Source: Talaromyces rugulosus (taxonomy: Eukaryota; Ascomycota; Eurotiomycetes; Eurotiales; Trichocomaceae). Taken from it: a stretch of 64,000 bases of DNA. How positions within the stretch are numbered: the stretch's first letter is position 1; each line of letters begins with the position of its first letter. The notes beneath the pieces are model-generated. The model saw only the letters and a list, made by a program, of their open reading frames with translations, was not told the origin of the DNA and searched no databases. The stretch is from NCBI RefSeq assembly GCF_013368755.1, contig NC_049563.1:3658001-3722000 (forward strand), in the 5' to 3' direction. This document shows, one piece after another, positions 11,646 to 33,921 of this stretch. The position numbers and the translations under genes are program-made.

Positions 11646-13382
11646 AGGGAACATAAAAATCAGGTCCAGGAAGCTAGGGTGCAGGTAGGAGACGCTTTAG
11701 TGGCATTCTCCCCAACAGCCATCCGGTGGTTAGGGGTCTTACTAGATCCAAAGCTTACCCTCAAAGCCCACTATAAGTACCGCCTGCAAAAAGGTCAAAA
11801 TACTGAAAGACGAGTGCGGGCACTGTGCAAGGCCCAGGGGCTCCCCCCAGGCCTGGCATGGCGAATCCAAAAGGCCACCGCGCAGTCAGTGGCGCTTTAT
11901 GGGGCCGAGCTTTGGTGGCATGGGCAAAAGAACTGCCTAGAAGGACTGCAGGGCCTAATTAATAACCAGGCCCGGGCAGTCACAGGCATGCTGAAGTCCA
12001 CCCCATTAGGACCGCTTATAAGGGAGGCAGCTTTGGAACCAGCAGAGGCCCTATTAGATAGTAAACAGCGGCGGTATGCCCTGAGACTCCTAGGACTTCC
12101 CCAGGGGCATCCAGCAGCAGAAATACTCCCCATAACGCTTAGGGAGGGAGACGCCCATGCACAGCCTGGAGAGCAGCCGCTAGAAGACCGAGCTTGGGCA
12201 ACACCAACCCGCCGAGGCCCCTGGAAGCTGGGCATGGGCCTGGCCCGCAGGCTACGAGAGGCCTTGACCGCCGACCCCTCCCAGGGCTTTGAGCGTACAA
12301 TAGAGCCTGGTAATAGGTCTATACCACTAGATTTCAGGATAGACTCCCCTGAAACCGCTATGCAATTAGCCTCAGACCCCCTAAGTGGGATAGGGAACAC
12401 TGACCTTTACTCAGACGGTTCCAGGTTAGACGATCAGCGCGTAGGCGCTGCGGTAGCTTATAAGCCACTTATTGGCCCCTGGAGGTCGCGCCTAGCTCCC
12501 CTGGGCGCAGGCTTCGAAGTCTTTGATGCAGAACTAATAGGAGTAGTCGAAGCCCTAGAGTGGGCGCTGGCAGAGAATCTTAGAGGGCCAATTAGGGTGT
12601 TTCTCGATGCTCAAGCCGCTATAGGCAGGCTTCAGCATACCCAGCCAGGCCCTGGCCAAGCCCTGGCGCTGCGGGCACATGATCTAGCCAAGGAACTGCA
12701 GGCCACCGGCCGCAGGGTTACTATATGCTGGGTGCCAGGCCATAAGGGGGTCCCAGGCAACGAAGAGGCCGATAAAGCCGCCAAGAAAGCTGCGGGGAAG
12801 CCCCGAACAGGCAAATACTCGGGCATCTCACTGGCACATGCTCAACGGGCCTGTACCGAAGCTTATAGAGCTGCCAGGGCCAACTGGCTTGCTGCAAAGC
12901 TTGCAAAGCGTGCCCAGCGGGCAAGCCAGGCCTACTATCCCCCCCGGGGATGGAAGCTTGACCCAATGTTGGCGAACACCCCCAAGCACCTAGCGCGGCG
13001 ATATTACCAGTTCAAGACTGGCCACGCACCAATTGGGGCCTATTTGCACCGAATTAAGGCCCGAGACTTCCCTAATTGCTTGGGGTGCTCTAGGGGGACT
13101 GAGACGGTAAGACACCTTCTTACAAACTGTCGACAGTGGTGCCACCAGCGGGAAAAACTATATGCCGGCTTGGCCGAAGCGGGGGTAAAGGCCCTGCAGG
13201 ATAGCGAGCAGTGCCCCGAAGCACGCCTATTCCAGGACCCAAAGGCCACTACAGCGCTGCTGGCGTTTATAGGGGCCATTAGGGAGCGAGAGGATAACCA
13301 ACAGGCCTGGGAGCAGGCCTATAAGACTGATAATTGGGGCATTGAGGCCCTGGATGAGGGAGAGCGAGAGGGGGAAGGATAG
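11646..13382 (+). pseudogene. C-terminal part of LINE ORF2: RNase H and CCHC domain
   Basis: Open from the insertion edge to TAG at 13380-13382. There is no true start: the first candidate codon, GTG at 11679, is inside the domain. Numbered from that codon (567 residues), the end of the RT-linked region is FSPTAIRWLGVLLDPKLTLK at 10-29. RNase H has acidic residues D246 (YSDGS), E285 (DAELIGVVEALEWA), D310 (FLDAQAAI) and D365 (GNEEAD). A CCHC motif lies at C467, C470, H479 and C484 (CLGCSRGTETVRHLLTNC). RNase H removes RNA from the cDNA hybrid. The reverse transcriptase core and endonuclease are missing, so the copy cannot move on its own. A RNase H after RT points to the Tad or I group of LINEs. 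Confidence 0.9.
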
Positions 13383-13686: not shown

Positions 13687-16600
13687 ATGGGGAAAAGCAA
13701 AAAATATTAATATAAAATATAAAGGAACTGTTATTATAAGAACAAATATAAAACATATTTATATTTTATAAAATGTATTCTTTATTCCTGAATTGGGAAT
13801 AAATATCTTAAGCATAAATAGTATTAAAAATACTATATGCTTATTTATAGATAAAAAATGCTATATATATAATAAAATACCAAAAAAGCTTACATGTATA
13901 GCTTATAAAAAAGAAAGATTATATAAAACAAATTTTGATATTCTATGCAATAATAAAAATAATTATATCCTGTCAACAGATTATAAACAAAATAATATAA
14001 AAATATGGCATGAAAGATTAGGCCATATAAATGCAGAAGCATTAAAAGAAATATTAAAAATAAAAGAATTATATTTTTCTATTAAAGAAATAACTTCAGC
14101 AATTATTAATTGTGAAGTATGCCTACAATCAAAATATAATAGAAAAATAAATAAAACCTCAGAAAATAATTTAAAAAATTATAAAATAGGAGAAAAAATA
14201 CACAGTGATATTGGGGGTCCTATTTTTCCTCAAACATATGATAATAAATCATATTATATAACCTTTCTAGACAAAAAAAAAAAAAAAAAAAAAATCTAGA
14301 TATTTATTTACAAATATCCTAAAAGGAAAATATGAAGCTCTAGAAGCCTTTAAGAAATTTAAAAATATTATTGAAAACCAAAATAATATTAAAATAAAAG
14401 AATTCTTTTCTGATAATGGAGGAGAATATATAAATAATAATTTTGAAATATTATTTAATGAATATGGAATAATTCATAACAAAACACCTTTTTATACAAA
14501 AGAACCAAATGGATTAATAGAAAGAATTAATCTTACTTTAATGAATAAAGTAAGAAGCTTTTTATTTAATTCTAATAATAATAAAAATCTATGGGGAGAA
14601 GCTCTATTAGCTGCCACTTTTATATATAATAGAACTCCTCATAAATCTATTCAATATAAAACTCCATATGAAATATATTATAAAGAAAAACCAAAAATTG
14701 AACATATTAAAATATGGGGATCTATAATATATTATCATACAAATAAGAAAACTCATAAATTACTACCAAGAAAAAGAAAAGGAATCTTAATTGGTTTTAG
14801 TGATTATAAACATTATAAAATTCTTGATATAGAAACTAAAAAATCTCTATGGTCTAGAGATGTTTCTATTCTAGAAGGAATATATCCTAATAACAATAAT
14901 AATAATAATAACAATAACAACAATAATAACAATAATAACAATAATAACAATAATAACAATAATAACAATAATAACAATAATAACAATAATAACAATAATA
15001 ACAATAATAACAATAATAACAATAATAACAATAATAACAATAATAACAATAATAACAATAATAACAATAATAACAATAATAACAATAATAACAATAATAA
15101 CAATAATAACAATAATAACAATAATAACAATAATAACAATAATAACAATAATAACAATAATAACAATAATAACAATAATAACAATAATAACAATAATAAC
15201 AATAATAACAATAATAACAATAATAACAATAATAACAATAATAACAATAATAACAATAATAACAATAATAACAATAATAACAATAATAACAATAATAACA
15301 ATAATCATAAAGAAATAAATAATAATTTGGAAATAGAAATAAATAATATTCCAAATAAATCTTTTGAAATAGTTGAAACTATTCCAAAGAATAAAATTGA
15401 AATCAATATTCCTGAATATAATAAGGAATCAATAAATTATATAAATAAAATTAATAAAGAATTTATTTATAATATTGAAGACACTACAATATCTGATTTT
15501 ATTAAAATAATTGAATATAATCAAAATATTGAAAATATTCTGAATATAAATATAAAAGAACTGAATACTTTTAAACAAGCTATAAATTCTGAAGAAAAAG
15601 AAGAATGGTATAAAGCATGTTTAGAAGAAAATGAGGAATTATTATCTCAAAATACTTTTGAAATAATAGATATTCCAGAAAATATAATATCAATAAAAGG
15701 AAGATGGGTTTTTAAAAGAAAGGATATAAATCCTAATTCTTATAAACCAAATTTTATTACAAATAAGAATAAAACAATAAGATATAAAGCCTGATGGGTT
15801 ATACAAGGTTTTCATCAAAAATTGGGAATTGATTACCTAGAAACCTTTTCTACAACTGCAAGAACTGAAACCTGGCATTTACTGCTTATTATTGCAGTAA
15901 ATAAGGGTTGGTTTATAAAACAATATGATGTTAAAAATGCATTTGTACATGCAAATATTGACACAAAAATATATACAATTTTACCAATAGGATTATATGA
16001 TAATTCTAAATATAAAAATAAATGTTGCTTATTAAATAAAGCACTATATGGTTTAAAATAAGCACCAAGATTATGGAATTTATTTTTCAGAAATATAATC
16101 AAAAAATATGGTTTTACTGTTCTTCCATATGATGAAGGAATATATATAAATACTATAACAAATGCAATTTTAATAGTGCATGTTGATGATATAATATTTA
16201 TATATAAAGATTTATTATATATTGAAGATATGACAAATAAATTAAATAAAGAAATTAAAATTCAAGATATGGGAGAAATCTCTACATTCTTTGGAAATAA
16301 TATAAAAATAAATTATAAAGAAAAAATCATTATTATAAATCAAAAAGATTATATAATAAAACTATTGAATAAATTCAATATATTTAATAGCTTTATATCA
16401 AAGAAAATACCTGCATAATTAGGAATAAAATTATATAAAAATAATACTATAGCAGATAATAAAATTACTGTATAATATTAATCAGAAATTGGGTCTTTAT
16501 TATATTTATCTTTAAAAATAAGATCTGATATTATCTATAATATGAATCTAGGAGCTAGATTCATGAGTAATCCCTCCAAAGATTATATAAATGTAATTAA

Positions 16601-17923: not shown

Positions 17924-18173
17924 TGTTACGGGCTAAGTCCCGTCTTACTGGCCTAATGTAGGTCCAGGAATTGAGTAGATTCGAACGTGAGAAAGAGAAA
18001 GAAAAGGTTTGCAGGGGTTCGCATTGTCGATACAGGTGAGTATGGGTCCTGGGGGCGCCCTAGCGAATCTGGTGTAGCGTCAGAGGATTTTTCTATAGTG
18101 GATCAAGTGCAGACTAGGTGTGGTTATTCTACAAGAGCGAAGCCTAAGTATCTTAGAGGCTAGAACCTTAATA
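17924..18173 (-). repeat. Gypsy A 3' LTR
   Basis: 250 bp, pairs with 23158-23407. The first ~160 bp keep CG and CA dinucleotides. The end (ACCTTAATA) is RIPed relative to ACCCTAACA in the other copy. A short hairpin ACGGG...CCCGT is at its outer edge. Confidence 0.88.
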
Positions 18174-23157: not shown

Positions 23158-23407
23158 TATTATAGACTAAGTCCTGTTTTACTGGCTTAATGTAGGTCTA
23201 GGAATTGAGTAGATTCAAATATAAGAAAAAAAAAGAAAAGGTTCGTAGAGGTTCGCATTATTGATATAGATGAGTGTGGGTCCTAAGGGCGCTTTAGTGA
23301 ATCTGGTGTAGCGTCAGGGGGTTTTTCTATGGTGGATCAGGTGTGGACCAGGTGCGGTTATTCTACGAGAGCGAAGCCTGAGTATCCTAGGGGCTAGGAC
23401 CCTAACA
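23158..23407 (-). repeat. Gypsy A 5' LTR
   Basis: 250 bp. The inner half (about 23158-23290) is RIPed and the outer ~115 bp keep CG and CA. The outer half of each LTR is the better kept one. Confidence 0.88.
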
Positions 23408-26248: not shown

Positions 26249-26422
26249 TGTCAATCGGTTCAACAACTCGTCACCAAGATGTGAATCGGGGTGGGTATTC
26301 TGCTAACAGAAGGCAAGATGAGAAGTTTGTGTAAGGCAATCCTAGGATAAGTAGAGTACTATCGCAATGATAGGCTGCAAAGTATGTTGAAGAGTAATAG
26401 TAGTATGCTATTTGCTTGAGAG

Positions 26423-26432
26423 AATAAAACAC
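26423..26432 (-). other. R-region segment complementary to the gypsy B primer site
   Basis: GTGTTTTATT on the minus strand, about 40 nt downstream of the TATA box, so near the expected RNA 5' end. Its complement AATAAAACAC is found at the LTR/leader junction (33296-33305 on the minus strand). This is the Tf1-like self-priming arrangement. Confidence 0.65.
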
Positions 26433-26464
26433 AATAAGCTAGATACATGATGGTAAATGAGTGT

Positions 26465-26474
26465 CCTTATATAG
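26465..26474 (-). promoter_or_regulatory. Gypsy B LTR TATA box
   Basis: CTATATAAGG on the minus strand. It is followed after about 40 nt by the self-primer segment, so transcription of gag-pol from the matching site in the 5' LTR (33521-33530) would start in between. The + strand reading (CCTTATATAG) is also TATA-like. Confidence 0.65.
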
Positions 26475-26494
26475 CTGATCCTAAACATAGCGAG

Positions 26495-26519
26495 CATAGT
26501 CAAGCTCTGCTTGACTATG
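26495..26519. repeat. Perfect 11-bp hairpin in gypsy B LTR
   Basis: CATAGTCAAGC, loop TCT, GCTTGACTATG. Further CATAGTC and GACTATG half-sites follow to about 26570. It is repeated in the other LTR at 33551-33575. It may be a protein-binding palindrome or RNA structure; nothing decides this. Confidence 0.85.
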
Positions 26520-26591
26520 TCAGTACATAGTTCCTTAGCATAGTCTCACTATGTTGACTATGCAGTCACGTGCCTAAGTCCGTAAGGTGGG

Positions 26592-26710
26592 TCTTTTCGT
26601 ATGGAGACTCTTTTCGCGTGGAGATCCTTTCCGTACGGGATCTCTTTTCGTACGGAGTCTGTTTTCGTATGGAAACCATTTCCATACGACACAGGCTTCC
26701 GTTCGATGAG
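26592..26710. repeat. Array of seven 17-bp units in the U3 of gypsy B
   Basis: Units start at 26592, 26609, 26626, 26643, 26660, 26677 and 26694, with consensus TCTTTTCGTATGGAGAC (variants with CGTACG). The last two units are the most diverged. The array lies upstream of the TATA box for gag-pol and is repeated at 33648-33766. Probably enhancer-like. The short open frames over it are only repeat shadows. Confidence 0.85.
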
Positions 26711-26895
26711 TCATTCCATGCGGGAGTATAAGTGTAGGCGTTTCTTCCTTCTCGGGTACAATCAGAGATTCTACCCCACGAGAATATCCAATAACCTTTG
26801 CTTATGTAACTAGCGTCCGCTGTCACATCTATTGGCTGAGCGTTATCGATTCTTATGACAATCCCCTCCTTCGAAGGCTGGCGTCCCGACAGTCA

Positions 26896-26904
26896 CATAA
26901 ATAG
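26896..26904 (+). promoter_or_regulatory. TATA-like element of the antisense gene
   Basis: CATAAATAG on the + strand, about 70 nt upstream of the antisense ATG and outside the LTR. The same nine bases, in the context AGTCACATAAATAGTC, survive in the RIPed relative (58691-58699). Good spacing for an independent promoter. Confidence 0.5.
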
Positions 26905-26973
26905 TCGCAGGTCCCCGTCGCACAGGTAGGCTGATTCCTTTTCGTTAACATTCTTGGTGGTGATGTTCTAACC

Positions 26974-27507
26974 ATGTCGTCAAAGCAAAATATCGATAAA
27001 AACAATTTGTTCGCCCGTATTGTTGAAACCGGGATCGTTCTTCTTTTCCCTTGCCACAAGTGTGCTCTCTCAGGGAAGTCGTGTATTAAATCAGAAATTT
27101 CAAAGCGTTGCAGTGAGTGTGTTCGCAGCGGTCGCGGTCGCTGTGTTGAGATGGCGTCTTCGGATTTGGCATGGAAGAAGTTGTTGGCTGCTCAAAAGAA
27201 AATTGAGGAGGATGAGGAGGCAACTCTAGCGAAACTTCTTCGTCTCAAGAAACAGCGGAAGCTGCTTCAGAAGCGCGCCGGTCAGTTTATCCAGACGGAT
27301 ATTAAGGATGTGGAGGAGTTGGAGCGTTTGGAGGAGAAGGAGGAGGAGGAACGGAAACGAGAGGCCGAGCTGCAAAAATCAAACGAGATGATTGCGGCTG
27401 CCATCCAGGAGTTTCCCGTGTCGTCTAACAACGAGTTCGACCACGTCCTTTCCGAGTTTCTTTCTGGCGAAACGCTCGAATCTTTTCGGGGCAGTTCAAA
27501 TGCCTAA
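26974..27507 (+). CDS. Antisense ORF of gypsy B: Zn(II)2Cys6-like, coiled-coil protein
   Basis: 177 residues, opposite in strand to gag-pol, between the left LTR and the pol end; its last 83 bases overlap the pol C-terminus. ATG 26974 has A at -3. Residues 27-57 carry six Cys (C27, C30, C37, C46, C49, C57) spaced C-x2-C-x6-C-x8-C-x2-C-x7-C, which fits fungal Zn(II)2Cys6 DNA-binding clusters. Residues about 66-133 form a charged Lys/Glu-rich predicted coiled coil, a usual dimerisation element after such clusters. The tail (146-170, EFPVSSNNEFDHVLSEFLSG) is acidic and hydrophobic. A DNA-binding regulator of the element or its host is a reasonable guess, and a zinc-binding structural or RNA-binding role is possible. 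A decayed homologue is at 58771-59325. Expression is unproven. Confidence 0.8.
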   Translation: MSSKQNIDKNNLFARIVETGIVLLFPCHKCALSGKSCIKSEISKRCSECVRSGRGRCVEMASSDLAWKKLLAAQKKIEEDEEATLAKLLRLKKQRKLLQKRAGQFIQTDIKDVEELERLEEKEEEERKREAELQKSNEMIAAAIQEFPVSSNNEFDHVLSEFLSGETLESFRGSSNA

Positions 27508-30500
27508 CTGGTTCCCATGAATTGTGTTCAGGTCCGTATCCTTTCCAGCTGACTAAGTAAAAGATTCTTCCTTCCACTAACTTTCTCTTCAGAATGTTTT
27601 CAACTTCATATTCATCCTCGGTTGCTTCGTCGTTACTGTTTTCTGGGTTTTCGGTTGGTTCCAATAATGAGATGTGAAATACTGGGTGCACTTTCATTCT
27701 TGCTGGTAGTCGGAGTTTGTAATTGTCGTTGGCGAGTTTTTCTTGAATCGTGAAAGGTCCGTATTTGATAGCGTCAAGTTTGTTGCTTGGTCTCTTGCTT
27801 GGAATGTTGAAATTTTTCTGTCCAATTGTTCGTCGTAGTAAGTAAACTTTCTCCCCCTTTTTGAGGATTGGCGCGTCCTCGCGCTTCTTGTCGTAGTAGG
27901 TCTTCATTCGGTTTTCAGCCCACTTGATGTCTTTCGATATTGTGTGATGGAGTGCCTGTAGTTTGTTGGCTTGTATTATCGCGGCTTCGGATAATCCTTC
28001 TCGTGGTACTTCAGACCATGTCATTCTTGGGTGTCGTCCAAGATTTGCAAAATGTGGAACTTGTTTCGTCGTAGCGTTTTCTGCATTGTTTAATGCGAAC
28101 TGTGCTAATGGTAGTAGTTCTACCCAGTTATCTTGTTCCCAGTCTAAATAGTGTCGAAAATACTGTTCAACTGTTTGAATCATTCTTTCAGACTGGCCAT
28201 CAGTCTGTTGGTGATTCGCGGTTGATAGTTTGTGATGCATTCCGCATGCTTTTGCAATTGTCTGCCAATATTTGGATGTGAACAACTTGTCTCGGTCCGT
28301 GATGAGTTCGTTTGGTAATCCGGTCCATACAAAAACTTTTCGTAACATAAGTTTTGCACATTGTTCTGCTGTCATATCCTTTGGTGTTGGTTCTAGGATA
28401 ACATATTTCGTAAGTCGGTCGACTGTTATTATGGCATCGGTGTAGGTAACTCCTGTTACTGGGTCCTTGGACTGCGGTAGTCCTTGGATAAAGTCAACAG
28501 TGATACTTTTCCATGCTTCTTCTGGTACTTCCGGTATTTGCATTTTTCCAAAGGGTTTGTGGTGTACTGCTTTGTTTCTGTTGCATTCGTCGCAGTTTCT
28601 GATGTAATTCTCAACCCTTTTTCGGACATAAGGAAAGTAGAATGTTCGGGTAATCATTTCGATTGTCCTTTCAACTCCTTGGTGTCCTTTTGTTGGAGGA
28701 TCGTGGTAGCGCTGAATGACTTCCGTAGTCATATTCTGCGGTACTCTGATCATTCCATTCCATATCGCTAAGCCTTTCTGAACATTTTTCGTAACTTGTC
28801 CGGCTTGTAATTCTTCTTGTATTTTTTGATCCTTGTTGGTTTCCTGATGCATTCGTTCGTAGAATGGATCATCGTCAACAACTCTTATTGCGGTCGCAAT
28901 GATTGCATTGTGATTGTGGCGTAGAACTCCTGATTCTTCTTGCAGAATGTTTGTCTTGGGGGGTTCTATCCCGATCGCGTAATCTGGTCGTCTGCTTAAT
29001 GCGTCTGCGGCTGCATTTTGTTTTCCTGGAATATGTTCAATCCTGTAATTGAATTTGGCTAGTTCTTCGGCCCATCGTATTTGTCTTCCAGATAATTCTT
29101 TTGTTGTCGTAAAGTACTTCAAATTGTGATGATCGCTTTTGACGATTACTTCATGTTTCGCTCCTTGGAGATAGTGTCGCCATTGTCGAAATGCTTGAAC
29201 TATCGCGAGTAATTCTCGGTCGTGAACGTCGTAGTTAACTTCCGCCGATGTAAACTTTCTCGAGTAGAATGCGACAATCTGCGTTTCTCCCTTTTCATTG
29301 ATTTGTTCATGGATTGCTCCAAGAGCATATCCAGATGCGTCTGTTCGTAGAATGCTTTGTAATTCTGGGTTAAATAGTTGTAAGATTGGCGCAATTTTAA
29401 CGAGTTCTTTAACGTTTTCAAAAGATCGTTGTCTCCTTGCTGTCCAATCAAATGGTTCGTCTTTTTTCAGCAATTCTGTCATTGGTGTTGTAACGTCTGA
29501 GTATTTCTCAAGATATCGTCGAACGTATCCGCTGGCTCCAAGAAAAGATTGTACGTCGTGGACGTTCGTTGGAGTTGGCCATTCGAGGATAGCGTCTAAT
29601 TTTTCTTTCGGTATCTCTAGTCCGTTTGTTGTATATACCATTCCTAGGTAGTTGACTCGTGTGGTGTCGAATTCACACTTCTTGATTTTGAGAGTCAATC
29701 CTGCTTCCATAAGTTTTGTCATAACCAGTCGTACATGGTTATCGTGTTCCTTCGGGTCTTTTGAGTAGACTATAACATCATCGAAGTATACTGCAACGAA
29801 GAGGTTAAGGTATTCTCGTAGGATGTGGGTCATAAACCTCGCGAATTCTGCTGGTAGCCGTTTGAGTCCCATAGGCGCTACTAGCCATTCGTACAGTCCC
29901 AAGTCTGTAAGGAATGCTGTTTTCCAGATGTCGTCATTTTTCATTCGTAGGTTGTAGTATCCCCATTCAACGTCGAACATTGTCATGATTTTTGCACCTT
30001 GCAATAAATCTCTCTTCTGTTCCTGATGTGGCGCTTTGTTTGCGTCGTCTTCGGTCATGTTATTTAATTTTCGGTAGTCGATGACCATTCGTGGTGATCC
30101 GTCGCGTTTTGGTACAAACATTGCTTGTGCAGAAGCCTTTGCTTTTGATTCTCTGATGTAACCGGCTGCTAAGAATTTCTCAATGAATTCCTTAGTAGTT
30201 CGGAGTTCATCTTGTGAGATTTGTCGTTGCTTCACTTGTGGCACCTGTGCTCCTGCTTTGAGAGGTATCTCTGCTTCATATTCTTTTTCGTGTTGTGGTA
30301 GTCGATATTCTTTTTTCACAAATAATTCGGTAAAGTTTCGATATTTTTCTGGTAGCTTGTCGAGCGCTTCCTTCAGTTCCTTTTCGTAGATTTCTTTTGG
30401 TTTCCTTCGTGTTTCAATTTGTCGGCCTATTTCGTTTATTTCTTCAGCATGTTTCACCCTCAACTGCTGGTCCGGTTTGATCCCCATTTGCTCTGTTTGT

Positions 30501-33235
30501 AGCATCTTCAGGTCTATTGACACTGTCTCGTGTTTCCAGTCAATGACAGGATTATGTTTCCGTAGCCATGTCATTCCGAGTATAACGTCGAAATCCTTTC
30601 GCTCGAACGGACTTAAATCCAGTTGGATGCCTTCTTCGTGTTCTCCTGATTTGATTGTGATGTTTTCAGTTCGTCGTACGAATCCTTCGATCGTGATTTG
30701 TCCTTCAAAATTTTGTACAGTATGCCATAGGTTTGTTTCGTACGTTTGGATCCTGTTTTTCCTGACGTATGCTTCGCTAATGTAATTTGTCGATGCTCCT
30801 GAGTCGAGGAGTAGTTTGGCTTCGTGTCCGTCGATTGTTCCTTTGATAATGATCACAGTTTCTCCTGTCTTGATGGTTGTGGCAATAAGGTGATGTCCCT
30901 TTCTGTGTCTTTCAAGGTATCGTTTCTGTGATAGAACAATTTCGGTCCAATCTTCATCGGTGTAGATGACTCGTCCTTCGTGGTATGGACATTTTTTCGC
31001 GTAGCACTGGTCAGTTTCGATGCTATTATGGAAAGGATGCCAAATTTCTTCTGCGTAGCACCAACATTCGTTCCAGCCCTTCGGACAGTCCGGGATGGGT
31101 TGATAGATGATCATCGGTGCCGTTGGCTTCCATTTGTTCTTTTCCTTTTCTTCGAGGTGAGTCGGACATTTTGACTCATAGCATTGCGTCCAGTGTATTT
31201 TCTTGTGATGGTGTCCTCCATATTGTGGGTAGTACATGCATGAACATCTTTCGGTATGCCCAAGCATCGGGTGGCACAACCGTGTTCCTTTGGTGAGTGA
31301 GACGTATTCGAATTCGTTTGCGAGTGCGATGTTCTTTTTCCCGTGCATATCGCATTTGTGAAATGTCCACTCGTGGCATTCTTCGCATTCAAGGATGTGT
31401 TGTCGGTATGTCTGAATAGAGTCTTCCCAACATACTGGTTTGGGTGGTTTGCAACTGCATTCTCGTTTTGGTTCTTTGTAGTCGATTTCAGGGAATTCCT
31501 CTGTTGTTTCGGAGTCTTCACTGTCTGTTTCCAGTTCTTCTTTGCTTGTTTCTGGAATCTCAATTCTTGTTCCTGGAACCGTCGTGTTGGTTCCTAAGAC
31601 TGAATCCCATTCTTTCTTTGTGATTAGTGGTCGTTTCTGGAACAGTCTGATTGTTTCATTTGCTTGGTTGATCGCTCTTGCGGCGTCTTTTCTGAGGTTG
31701 GTTGTTCTTGCTAACTGTGATTGTTGCGGGGTGTCTGATTCTCGATCCGAGTCCTCGTGGTCAACTTCCTTGTCTTTTCCACCGTCTCGAAACGTCAGGG
31801 GGTGTTGGCTTTCACTTCCTGATGAAAGGTCATCAATACGCCGTCCAGCGGTTTTGCTGTATTGGTCTTCTCTGCGAGGTTCTCTGATTGGTCCTTTCTC
31901 TTGACCTTGTCGTAGGTGAGGTTGCGCTTCTTCCGGGTTAGCGTCTTCTTCCTGGGGTGGTTCCCTTTCTGAACTCTGTCTGAGGCGTCCCTTAGATTGC
32001 CCAGGGCTATCTTCTGGCTCGAAATTCTCGAGCGCGTTGTATATTTCTTTTTCCAATATTGGTCCCCAGAAGTCCTTGACTTCATCGACCTGTTCGTTTT
32101 CTGACTCCTCCTCTTCACTGTCCAAGGGGGTCACAATTGTCTGGTGTATGGCCGCAATTTGTTGATGGACTGTTGTTATCTTCTGAGGGCTGACGTTACC
32201 GTTCTGTTTGTTTTGCCCTGATCGGCACTGTCGTGCAAAGTGTCCTTTTCGTCCGCACTTGTAACAAGCTTTGTTTTCCTTGCGCTTGGCCATTTCTTCC
32301 TTACTGATCACGTTGTTGAGCTGCATCTTGACATCGCCGTCCTTGTCGTATTGGGTTCCTCGCTTTGCCGATGTGTTGGCATACTGAGGGAATCCTCCAA
32401 CTTTCTTCCATCTCTGAAACTCCTGTCGCTTCTGTTTGATCTCGAACAGTTTGTTGTCTATCTTGACCGCCATCTCAATGAATCTGTCAATGTTGTCGGG
32501 TCGGTCGAGTTTGATGAGTTCCGTCTGGACTTCTTCCTTGAGCATGTTCTCAAAGGTTGCGATTTGAATAGCATCATCATAGTGCAGTGGTGTTACTATC
32601 TGTCGGAATTTGGTTGCTAACTGCTGAGCGGATCCGGTTTGTCGTAGGTATCTTAGTTGTCTTTCTGCGGTCCGTAGCTCATCGATATTTCCGAACGCTT
32701 CTCCAAGTTTCTGTTTGAACATGCCGTAGTTCGAAAACAGTTCCCTGGTGATAGTTCCCCAACTACCTTTGTCGATAGTGTATAATTCACTTAGCATAGG
32801 CTGTATCCATTCTGCTGCTGCATCGGTAAAGCATGATGCCACAAAGATCATTTTCTTTTTGTCATTGGTGATCTGGTTGGCTTCGATATGCATTTCCATG
32901 TTGACCAAGAATGTCTTCAACTTAGATCTAGTTCCGTCGAAGGTCATGGGTTTTGGTAGCTTGACCCTGTTGCCGGCTGTTCCAGCTTCGCCAGGTGGTA
33001 TAGCCATGACTTGAGCTTCGAGTTGGTTGACATGATCGTCTCTTTCAGCGACCGCAGCTTGCAGTCTTTGAATGTGTTCATTCATTTGATCGATGACTCT
33101 TTCCAACGTGGTGAATCTTTGCTGAGTTTGTTCGTCGGGTTCATCGTCACTGTCTTGATCGACTGGTCTTGCTTGTCTTGCAGGTGGGCGCGGAGTTGCC
33201 GGTCCTGCTGCTGGTGCGTTGCTATTTCCTGCCAT
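27425..33235 (-). CDS. Gag-Pol polyprotein of gypsy B chromovirus (intact)
   Basis: 1,936 residues in one frame, ATG at 33235, TAG at 27425-27427. Order: coiled coil ~40-75; Gag capsid ~95-270; zinc knuckle CYKCGRKGHFARQC 324-337; acidic linker; Cys/His-rich module 593-752 (three C-x-C...C-P-x-H-type units); protease LLLDSGAS 808-815; RT 1010-1200 with first Asp in FDVEWGYYNLRM (D1088) and YFDD 1150-1153; RNase H D1299, E1341, D1368, D1411; integrase zinc H1511, H1518, C1548, C1551 and core D1581, D1647, E1683 (D-35-E); chromodomain ~1874-1922. It makes virus-like particle, cDNA and integration functions; the chromodomain would target heterochromatin. All catalytic residues are present. The single frame fits Tf1/sushi-type elements with no frameshift. 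Confidence 0.95.
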   Translation of the reverse strand: MAGNSNAPAAGPATPRPPARQARPVDQDSDDEPDEQTQQRFTTLERVIDQMNEHIQRLQAAVAERDDHVNQLEAQVMAIPPGEAGTAGNRVKLPKPMTFDGTRSKLKTFLVNMEMHIEANQITNDKKKMIFVASCFTDAAAEWIQPMLSELYTIDKGSWGTITRELFSNYGMFKQKLGEAFGNIDELRTAERQLRYLRQTGSAQQLATKFRQIVTPLHYDDAIQIATFENMLKEEVQTELIKLDRPDNIDRFIEMAVKIDNKLFEIKQKRQEFQRWKKVGGFPQYANTSAKRGTQYDKDGDVKMQLNNVISKEEMAKRKENKACYKCGRKGHFARQCRSGQNKQNGNVSPQKITTVHQQIAAIHQTIVTPLDSEEEESENEQVDEVKDFWGPILEKEIYNALENFEPEDSPGQSKGRLRQSSEREPPQEEDANPEEAQPHLRQGQEKGPIREPRREDQYSKTAGRRIDDLSSGSESQHPLTFRDGGKDKEVDHEDSDRESDTPQQSQLARTTNLRKDAARAINQANETIRLFQKRPLITKKEWDSVLGTNTTVPGTRIEIPETSKEELETDSEDSETTEEFPEIDYKEPKRECSCKPPKPVCWEDSIQTYRQHILECEECHEWTFHKCDMHGKKNIALANEFEYVSLTKGTRLCHPMLGHTERCSCMYYPQYGGHHHKKIHWTQCYESKCPTHLEEKEKNKWKPTAPMIIYQPIPDCPKGWNECWCYAEEIWHPFHNSIETDQCYAKKCPYHEGRVIYTDEDWTEIVLSQKRYLERHRKGHHLIATTIKTGETVIIIKGTIDGHEAKLLLDSGASTNYISEAYVRKNRIQTYETNLWHTVQNFEGQITIEGFVRRTENITIKSGEHEEGIQLDLSPFERKDFDVILGMTWLRKHNPVIDWKHETVSIDLKMLQTEQMGIKPDQQLRVKHAEEINEIGRQIETRRKPKEIYEKELKEALDKLPEKYRNFTELFVKKEYRLPQHEKEYEAEIPLKAGAQVPQVKQRQISQDELRTTKEFIEKFLAAGYIRESKAKASAQAMFVPKRDGSPRMVIDYRKLNNMTEDDANKAPHQEQKRDLLQGAKIMTMFDVEWGYYNLRMKNDDIWKTAFLTDLGLYEWLVAPMGLKRLPAEFARFMTHILREYLNLFVAVYFDDVIVYSKDPKEHDNHVRLVMTKLMEAGLTLKIKKCEFDTTRVNYLGMVYTTNGLEIPKEKLDAILEWPTPTNVHDVQSFLGASGYVRRYLEKYSDVTTPMTELLKKDEPFDWTARRQRSFENVKELVKIAPILQLFNPELQSILRTDASGYALGAIHEQINEKGETQIVAFYSRKFTSAEVNYDVHDRELLAIVQAFRQWRHYLQGAKHEVIVKSDHHNLKYFTTTKELSGRQIRWAEELAKFNYRIEHIPGKQNAAADALSRRPDYAIGIEPPKTNILQEESGVLRHNHNAIIATAIRVVDDDPFYERMHQETNKDQKIQEELQAGQVTKNVQKGLAIWNGMIRVPQNMTTEVIQRYHDPPTKGHQGVERTIEMITRTFYFPYVRKRVENYIRNCDECNRNKAVHHKPFGKMQIPEVPEEAWKSITVDFIQGLPQSKDPVTGVTYTDAIITVDRLTKYVILEPTPKDMTAEQCAKLMLRKVFVWTGLPNELITDRDKLFTSKYWQTIAKACGMHHKLSTANHQQTDGQSERMIQTVEQYFRHYLDWEQDNWVELLPLAQFALNNAENATTKQVPHFANLGRHPRMTWSEVPREGLSEAAIIQANKLQALHHTISKDIKWAENRMKTYYDKKREDAPILKKGEKVYLLRRTIGQKNFNIPSKRPSNKLDAIKYGPFTIQEKLANDNYKLRLPARMKVHPVFHISLLEPTENPENSNDEATEDEYEVENILKRKLVEGRIFYLVSWKGYGPEHNSWEPVRHLNCPEKIRAFRQKETRKGRGRTRC
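30980..31459 (-). other. Region of Gag-Pol coding for a triplicated Cys/His module
   Basis: Residues 593-752 between zinc knuckle and protease. Units begin RECSCKPP (593), TERCSCMYY (664) and WNECWCYAE (724), and end KCDMH (627-631), KCPTH (689-693) and KCPYH (748-752), with His pairs between. It looks like three divergent zinc-binding repeats. I know no name for it. RIPed traces of it are present in the relatives at 47800-48065 and 62800-63290. Confidence 0.7.
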
Positions 33236-33295: not shown

Positions 33296-33305
33296 GTGTT
33301 TTATT
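33296..33305 (-). other. Gypsy B self-primer binding site
   Basis: AATAAAACAC on the minus strand: the last base of the 5' LTR plus the first nine of the leader. Complementary over 10 nt to GTGTTTTATT in the R region. No tRNA-type TGG start is present. Confidence 0.65.
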
Positions 33306-33916
33306 GTCAATCGGTTCAACAACTCGTCACCAAGATGTGAATCGGGGTGGGTATTCTGCTAACAGAAGGCAAGATGAGAAGTTTGTGTAAGGCAATCCTA
33401 GGATAAGTAGAGTACTATCGCAATGATAGGCTGCAAAGTATGTTGAAGAGTAATAGTAGTATGCTATTTGCTTGAGAGAATAAAACACAATAAGCTAGAT
33501 ACATGATGGTAAATGAGTGTCCTTATATAGCTGATCCTAAACATAGCGAGCATAGTCAAGCTCTGCTTGACTATGTCAGTACATAGTTCCTTAGCATAGT
33601 CTCACTATGTTGACTATGCAGTCACGTGCCTAAGTCCGTAAGGTGGGTCTTTTCGTATGGAGACTCTTTTCGCGTGGAGATCCTTTCCGTACGGGATCTC
33701 TTTTCGTACGGAGTCTGTTTTCGTATGGAAACCATTTCCATACGACACAGGCTTCCGTTCGATGAGTCATTCCATGCGGGAGTATAAGTGTAGGCGTTTC
33801 TTCCTTCTCGGGTACAATCAGAGATTCTACCCCACGAGAATATCCAATAACCTTTGCTTATGTAACTAGCGTCCGCTGTCACATCTATTGGCTGAGCGTT
33901 ATCGATTCTTATGACA
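33305..33916 (-). repeat. Gypsy B 5' LTR
   Basis: 612 bp; I see no difference from 26249-26860. Contains the same TATA box, hairpin and 17-bp array, shifted by 7,056. Confidence 0.95.
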
Positions 33917-33921
33917 ATAGC

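Follow-up and report, generated by a model that had tools for sequence, protein, structure and literature searches.

An antisense brtn-family gene with type-matched U3 sites suggests self-regulation of a chromovirus in Talaromyces rugulosus

The antisense gene and its element

A stretch of 64,000 nucleotides of the Talaromyces rugulosus genome (C3:3658001-3722000, on contig NC_049563.1 of assembly GCF_013368755.1; hereafter, the window) contains a complete-looking chromovirus, a Ty3/gypsy long terminal repeat (LTR) retrotransposon with a chromodomain. An open reading frame (ORF) of 177 amino acids (26974 to 27507, plus strand, ATG start) runs opposite to gag-pol and is placed between that gene and the 3' LTR; a profile search identifies it as a member of the brtn family. 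Here, the N-terminal part of the encoded protein and a site array in the U3 region of the LTR were found to differ between two element types and usually to change together. The antisense gene, which probably encodes a DNA-binding protein, and the repeated sites that usually match its type suggest self-regulation of the element by a lock and key that can be switched.

The gag-pol ORF (27425 to 33235, minus strand; 1936 amino acids) was defined from the ORF list and from domain models, which matched a Ty3 capsid, CCHC knuckle, protease, reverse transcriptase, RNase H, integrase, and chromodomain. Its last 83 nucleotides are overlapped by the antisense ORF. Identity to the T. rugulosus gag-pol database protein TRUGW13939_04831 was 100% over the searched stretch. 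The annotated T. rugulosus gag-pol P0123 has 1868 amino acids and stops before the chromodomain encoded by the window's frame, which may reflect how it was annotated or a difference between copies. Both LTRs read on the minus strand. Judged by the terminal TG...CA and the ATAGC found on either flank, their limits were placed at 26249 to 26860 (3' LTR) and 33305 to 33916 (5' LTR), and a 614-base run is identical in both (26249 to 26862 and 33305 to 33918). The leader between the 3' LTR and the ORF (26861 to 26973, plus strand) comprises the polypurine tract, on the minus strand, and the 5' flank of the ORF. It also holds a putative TATA-like sequence, ATAAATAG, at about 26897 (plus strand), upstream of the ORF.

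The original prediction, made from the sequence alone, had described a 177-codon frame opposite gag-pol with six cysteines spaced 2-6-8-2-7. The frame and its start were confirmed, as was the spacing in the translation, where the cysteines occupy positions 27, 30, 37, 46, 49, and 57. A chance ORF was ruled out by the database homologues and by purifying selection.

Two element types differ in two blocks

The protein matched 54 places in the genome, and the ORF was intact in 17. Six of these, including the window copy, were identical (type A), and the other 11 (L007 to L017) showed 81% identity (type B). The other 37 of the 54 matches were degraded copies or fragments. One A copy (C6:3382636) was shortened in gag-pol, with an LTR spacing of 6150 and 2713 of 2896 bases matched.

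The divergence between A and B was confined to two blocks, the U3 site array and the zinc/coil module of the ORF. In U3, the identity per 50 bases was 35 to 56% over 26499 to 26798 and 82% over 26799 to 26848. On this basis, a type-specific U3 block was delimited in the 3' LTR (26502 to 26831), and its copy in the 5' LTR is identical (33558 to 33887; C3:3691558-3691887). Just beyond the block lies a candidate sense TATA box, TATATAAGG (26466 to 26474, minus strand). In the ORF, the identity was 46 to 72% per 50 bases over 26999 to 27298; A/B divergence and the ratio of nonsynonymous (dN) to synonymous (dS) substitution define here an exchangeable N-terminal module consisting of the zinc-cluster-like domain and the first coil (26995 to 27293, plus strand; type A in the window). 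Elsewhere, the two types were much alike, at 94 to 100% per 50 bases on the U5/R side (3'-part alignment) and in the aligned gag-pol stretch (final 6-base piece excepted), 85 to 100% over the U3 tip and leader, about 97% in the remaining gag-pol, and about 96.5% at the gag end.

In ORF codons 8 to 107, 57 of 67 synonymous sites differed between A and B, so that dS was saturated, while dN was 0.27; at the pol 3' end, dS was 0.07 and dN 0.005. Two A copies (L003 and L004) differed by 6 synonymous and 0 nonsynonymous changes. Purifying selection on the N-terminal module is shown by these values, and the dN/dS check proposed with the original prediction, in which dN came out far below dS, left that prediction standing. 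Because dS is saturated and dN low on a near-identical backbone, the module is old, coding, and constrained, and it sits on a young backbone. In addition, three A copies were 97 to 98% identical to the window in the middle of gag-pol and had an identical module. Since gag-pol middles differ among A copies, type A itself also contains mosaic backbones. Another reading, that two regions free of constraint had drifted rapidly, was considered; for the coding block it was excluded by dN far below dS, and it was further countered by the leader, 92% identical between A and B, that separates the two divergent blocks.

Repeated sites in U3 and their pairing with the module

In type A, the U3 block carries an array (26579 to 26731) of up to nine 17-base units with a palindromic core near TYCGTAYGGA. 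A period of 17 gave the top autocorrelation (0.396 versus a shuffle maximum of 0.354; here and in the palindrome tests the shuffles preserve base composition only), and Tandem Repeats Finder (TRF) reported 4.8 units of period 17, the outer units being degenerate. TYCGTAYGGA matched the window 8 times versus 0.09 expected from shuffles, with 6 matches in the two LTRs and 2 elsewhere. Thus, the CGTACG-type LTR sites noticed earlier are real, as units at 17-base spacing from 26579 that are enriched over shuffles. The word TTCCGTACGG occurred 8 times in type A at two or fewer mismatches; in 20 shuffles, no best word exceeded 5 occurrences. The A motif (two or fewer mismatches) had 4 matches in 6442 internal bases versus 5 in each 612-base LTR.

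Type B has GTGC-N4-GCAC palindromes instead, with 9 sites at three or fewer mismatches from GTGCATCTGCAC, whereas shuffles gave no more than 4. Tandem periodicity was rejected for the B array: a period of 19 bases, at 0.334, lay under the 99% shuffle level of 0.342, and TRF found no such array in type B. The A motif (two or fewer mismatches) was absent from the B copy L007, and the B motif (three or fewer mismatches) was absent from the window element. Among the best 40 candidates scored in each genome search, neither U3 block was recovered with the other. Three LTRs (C6:3667457, C1:620133, and C5:5271592) had no second LTR at a distance of about 7 kb and are probably solo LTRs; by their U3 block, one was typed as A and two as B.

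By position, the 3' U3 and the module were of one type in all 17 intact-ORF copies, which descend from few masters. Among 14 degraded copies typed on both sides, 12 were matched (8 A/A and 4 B/B), 2 were B/A, and 0 were A/B. Twelve of the 14 came from the copies that were cut out (L019 to L022, L024, L026, and L028; L018, L030, and L055; and the mismatched L025 and L027), and the other two were typed by position (C6:3393007 and C4:3447352). Typing yielded nothing for L023, L029, and L057.

A predicted dimeric zinc-cluster-like protein

The cysteine pattern of Zn(II)2Cys6 proteins is C-X2-C-X6-C-X5-12-C-X2-C-X6-8-C, and the spacing in the query falls within it. All six cysteines were kept in 61 of 64 homologues, 60 of them with spacing in the canonical range and 1 with an X11 interval; the other 3 of 64 lacked a cysteine. 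In the AlphaFold model, residues 11 to 50 had a predicted local distance difference test score of 93 to 97, and residues 64 to 145 formed a single helix. The model weakly resembled Zn2Cys6 DNA-binding domains, and the 8 Protein Data Bank (PDB) entries listed by VIA-align were all zinc-cluster DNA-binding proteins. Coil length varied by whole heptads in 77 of the 82 parsable homologues (of 122), which are related, so that the heptad counts are not independent events. The type B coil is 7 residues, or one heptad, longer than that of type A.

Sequence searches gave a more reserved picture. Pfam PF00172 (Zn_clus) did not match the query at an E value of ≤1 or ≤5; it matched 41 of 64 homologues at E ≤ 5 (best E, 0.0029), and in the five of eight proteins that were listed it scored 9.6 to 15.6 bits versus a cut-off of 21. 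A single-sequence PDB search returned no zinc-cluster protein at E ≤ 1, and a PDB profile search (64 rows) returned PUT3 at E values of 0.38 and 1.6, ranked under coiled-coil and other matches. Lysine 18 (K18) of GAL4 contacts DNA. In the basic loop between cysteines 2 and 3, the query has no lysine at that position but G34, with K35 one place on. Because PF00172 misses the query and the basic loop is noncanonical, the plain Zn(II)2Cys6 label of the original prediction was overstated. Its broader claim of a zinc-cluster coiled-coil dimer drew support from the conservation, the predicted fold, and the heptad coil lengths, and the structure prediction suggested as a check returned a zinc-cluster-like fold.

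The protein shares with the Zn2Cys6 domains of HAP1, PUT3, LEU3, Pho7, and GAL4 the cysteine spacing, a predicted coiled-coil dimer element, and, in the model, two short helices after the CxxC pairs. It differs from them in the missing Pfam match, in the other basic residues of the reading loop, and in being short, with no large effector region. Judged from sequence and model, it is most likely a dimeric DNA-binding regulator, acting as a homodimer.

Relationship to brtn and exchange of modules

At E ≤ 0.001, 30 database homologues were found. A profile built from 20 sequences recovered 'Putative BRTN' of Botrytis (P0087; E, 1.7e-30) along with proteins of Aspergillus, Penicillium, Ophidiomyces, and Pseudogymnoascus, among the 120 listed of 253 matches (best 8000 candidates scored). 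The ORF is classed by homology as a brtn-family accessory gene because this search recovers Botrytis BRTN, a kinship that was missed in the original prediction. In excerpts of later papers, the antisense gene brtn of Boty-like elements is credited to Zhao et al. 2011, Virology 417:248 (PMC8365987, PMC4227169, PMC7264820), and a further paper mentions a Monilinia transcript with BRTN similarity. As in Boty-like elements, the ORF belongs to a Ty3/gypsy element with a chromodomain and occupies the antisense strand between gag-pol and 3' LTR, and P0087 is homologous to it, with the cysteine positions conserved in the alignment and the coil shared. However, the identity to P0087 was just 34% over 59% of the query, and the excerpts of papers citing Zhao et al. 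2011 describe no joint exchange of module and U3.

A literature search, which covered the 2011 brtn paper through citations, found in the excerpts no zinc-cluster reading of brtn and no report of its exchange together with LTR sites. The label 'Zn(2)-C6 fungal-type domain' has already been assigned automatically to an Aspergillus chevalieri relative (P0019). In one BcGypsy1 consensus, the usual brtn beginning is missing but a putative ORF is kept (PMC8365987, in part), which would fit a variable N terminus but is not a test of it. Such antisense ORFs are present next to the 3' LTR of LTR elements in both fungi and plants; according to a review excerpt, no function is known for them (PMC7264820). 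Searches of viral contigs and prokaryote genome contigs gave no confirmed match. Relatives P0005 and P0027 are on contigs equal in size to those of P0125 (6975) and P0129 (6298), respectively, a hint that they perhaps lie beside gag-pol.

Among the homologues, the modules recur on other tails. Coils and tails were clustered, with cut-offs of our own choosing, for 28 of 32 sequences (P0001 to P0030 and both T. rugulosus types); the four dropped were not splittable or too short. Of the 12 tail clusters, 4 were combined with at least two coil types (four types on tail 3, three on tail 5, and two on each of tails 4 and 6), and the A-like 40-residue coil and the 47-residue coils of the B cluster were both found on tails 3, 4, and 5. 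In addition, 85 of 123 proteins could be split into N-terminal part and tail, giving 3570 pairs. Tails were ≥70% identical in 26 pairs, 15 of which had N-terminal parts at <65%, and N-terminal parts were ≥70% identical in 47 pairs, 38 of which had tails at <65%. The figure of 15 in 26 is the telling one because tails evolve faster. From these comparisons we infer that modules may move between element backbones as matched specificity types.

Genome context

By hand count, 32 of the 37 degraded or fragmentary matches sit in one block per contig (C1, 3.05 to 3.22 Mb; C2, 3.06 to 3.14 Mb; C3, 3.55 to 3.72 Mb; C4, 3.33 to 3.50 Mb; C5, 3.48 to 3.65 Mb; and C6, 3.34 to 3.65 Mb), with limits that were drawn afterwards and cover about 1.07 of 35.8 Mb, and with some matches being pieces of one copy. 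The blocks look like AT-rich centromeres degraded by repeat-induced point mutation (RIP). The window is in the C3 block. Among the intact-ORF copies, 2 of the 6 of type A and 4 of the 11 of type B lie inside blocks. Within the window, L030 (57999 to 59325) is an older B-type copy with an LTR piece and a degraded antisense ORF, and it differs from B almost solely by transitions, as RIP predicts.

Outside the blocks, C6:806030-806155 showed 50% identity over residues 50 to 91 with no stop, and its DNA was 73% identical to the B module; it is a lone fragment or a diverged relative. A 172-base direct repeat in the window (18000 to 18171 and 23234 to 23405; 84% identity, 5234 apart), which may extend further since the search region began at 18000, perhaps represents the LTRs of another element. 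Two open frames on the plus strand are other transposon remains, one that encodes an RNase H domain and falls in an island rich in G+C (11679 to 13382; 59% over 12001 to 13000) and one with a retroviral SH3-like domain (14541 to 15794).

Probable self-regulation and rival explanations

The existence of brtn as an antisense gene at the 3' LTR was already known; what is new is that the A and B types differ in a paired module and array. As the specificity module usually changes with the palindromic array of its own promoter, a self-regulator is the simplest reading. The Zn2Cys6-like N-terminal domain, dimerized by a parallel coiled coil, would bind the palindromic sites arrayed in the U3 of its own element. 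The array lies upstream of the candidate sense TATA box, and the copy in the 3' LTR also precedes the antisense gene, so that one array could control both gag-pol and the regulator. In our view, positive autoregulation or anti-silencing would be more likely than repression. The earlier idea that the element carries its own regulator acting on the LTR gains indirect support from the paired divergence of N-terminal module and U3 array. For an action on host genes, the alternative named in the original prediction, no evidence emerged, although no search was aimed at it. In general, we consider that the protein probably regulates its own LTR as a dimer whose specificity can be exchanged, much as VANC does in VANDAL elements.

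Several observations weigh against this reading. Strong as it is, the pairing of module and array has exceptions, and it is partly explained by the physical closeness of the two. In L025 and L027, U3 and module are of different types, which contradicts a strict one-to-one inheritance; in L027, the type switches between the U3 tip and the leader, and L025 is mostly ambiguous at the junction. Because linkage and these two copies leave room for a neutral mosaic, self-regulation is held no higher than probable. Neutral mosaicism with linkage is the main rival. Here, A and B would be old lineages that acquired a common backbone by template switching, module and U3 would differ jointly as neighbors, and the protein would be functional in some way but not through the U3 array. 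The closeness of the two blocks, the two mismatched copies, the mosaic backbones of the A copies, and the exchange of modules and tails in both directions among homologues are all in its favor. However, the exchanged tract must then end by chance at a protein domain border and just upstream of the candidate sense TATA box, both arrays are repeated palindromes such as a dimer would read, and the A and B coils differ by one exact heptad. Thus, we regard this rival as serious but unlikely.

The remaining explanations account for less. An accessory role in replication, as a nucleic-acid chaperone or in nuclear import or complementary DNA tethering via the LTR ends or U3, would agree with a review excerpt in which such ORFs are proposed to act in the manner of retroviral accessory proteins and the Grande protein is cited as localizing to the nucleus (PMC7264820). 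Such a role needs no switch of promoter-proximal U3 sites, and the LTR tips are conserved between A and B, so that we find it improbable. Antisense RNA rather than protein could matter if double-stranded RNA tuned the silencing of the element; retrotransposon small RNAs are reported in Botrytis (PMC8365987, in part), and the review excerpt discusses antisense transcripts as possible silencing triggers (PMC7264820). The strong amino-acid constraint seen both between the types and between two A copies makes this very unlikely. Finally, host factors might read the U3 arrays, and the protein might have other targets, such as host genes or chromatin. Zinc-cluster factors are widespread among the host regulators of fungi, and on each contig the degraded copies are grouped in a single block, but the usual joint change of module and array would be left unexplained, and we give this reading hardly any credence.

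A more far-reaching form of self-regulation can be put forward tentatively, with rather more doubt than confidence. The antisense dimeric zinc-cluster regulator and the U3 operator array may form cassettes, similar to immunity types, that are exchanged together between fungal chromovirus backbones and keep old specificities in one genome, each type regulating or shielding its own kind. Two natural proteins and two natural arrays make the function of the antisense gene directly testable. A preference of each protein for the array of its own type would clarify what brtn-like genes do.

Comparison with known systems

HBZ of human T-cell leukemia virus type 1 is likewise an antisense gene driven from the 3' LTR, and its product is a dimeric regulator of DNA-binding type that acts on the LTR of the same element; it differs as a basic leucine zipper protein of unrelated fold and host. 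In phage repressor-operator immunity types, regulator specificity and sites change together on an otherwise similar genome. The proteins are unrelated, and superinfection immunity has been shown in phages, whereas the present case is known from sequence. The plant antisense ORFs termed aORF-3R (Grande gene23, Retand, RIRE2, and PvRetro13) are also antisense and were compared with the ORF by their description in the review excerpt (PMC7264820).

The closest parallel to self-regulation is VANC of the Arabidopsis VANDAL transposons, a sequence-specific DNA-binding protein whose targets, according to the excerpt, are often arranged as tandem repeats, which differ from one related transposon to the next (PMC5735166). 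Both systems have an element-encoded protein with conserved and variable regions, which here is predicted to bind DNA, and motifs that occur as repeats differing between related elements, which here would be the targets of the protein. In contrast, VANDAL is a DNA transposon, VANC is a sense gene for an unrelated protein (DUF1985/DUF287), and its binding and anti-silencing were shown by experiment. Consistent with unrelated proteins, the Pfam scan of the query listed no family, and neither DUF was among the 25 of 109 Pfam families listed for the 64 homologues. If self-regulation holds true, an LTR retrotransposon would join VANDAL in element-specific self-regulation, here with modules visibly moving between backbones.
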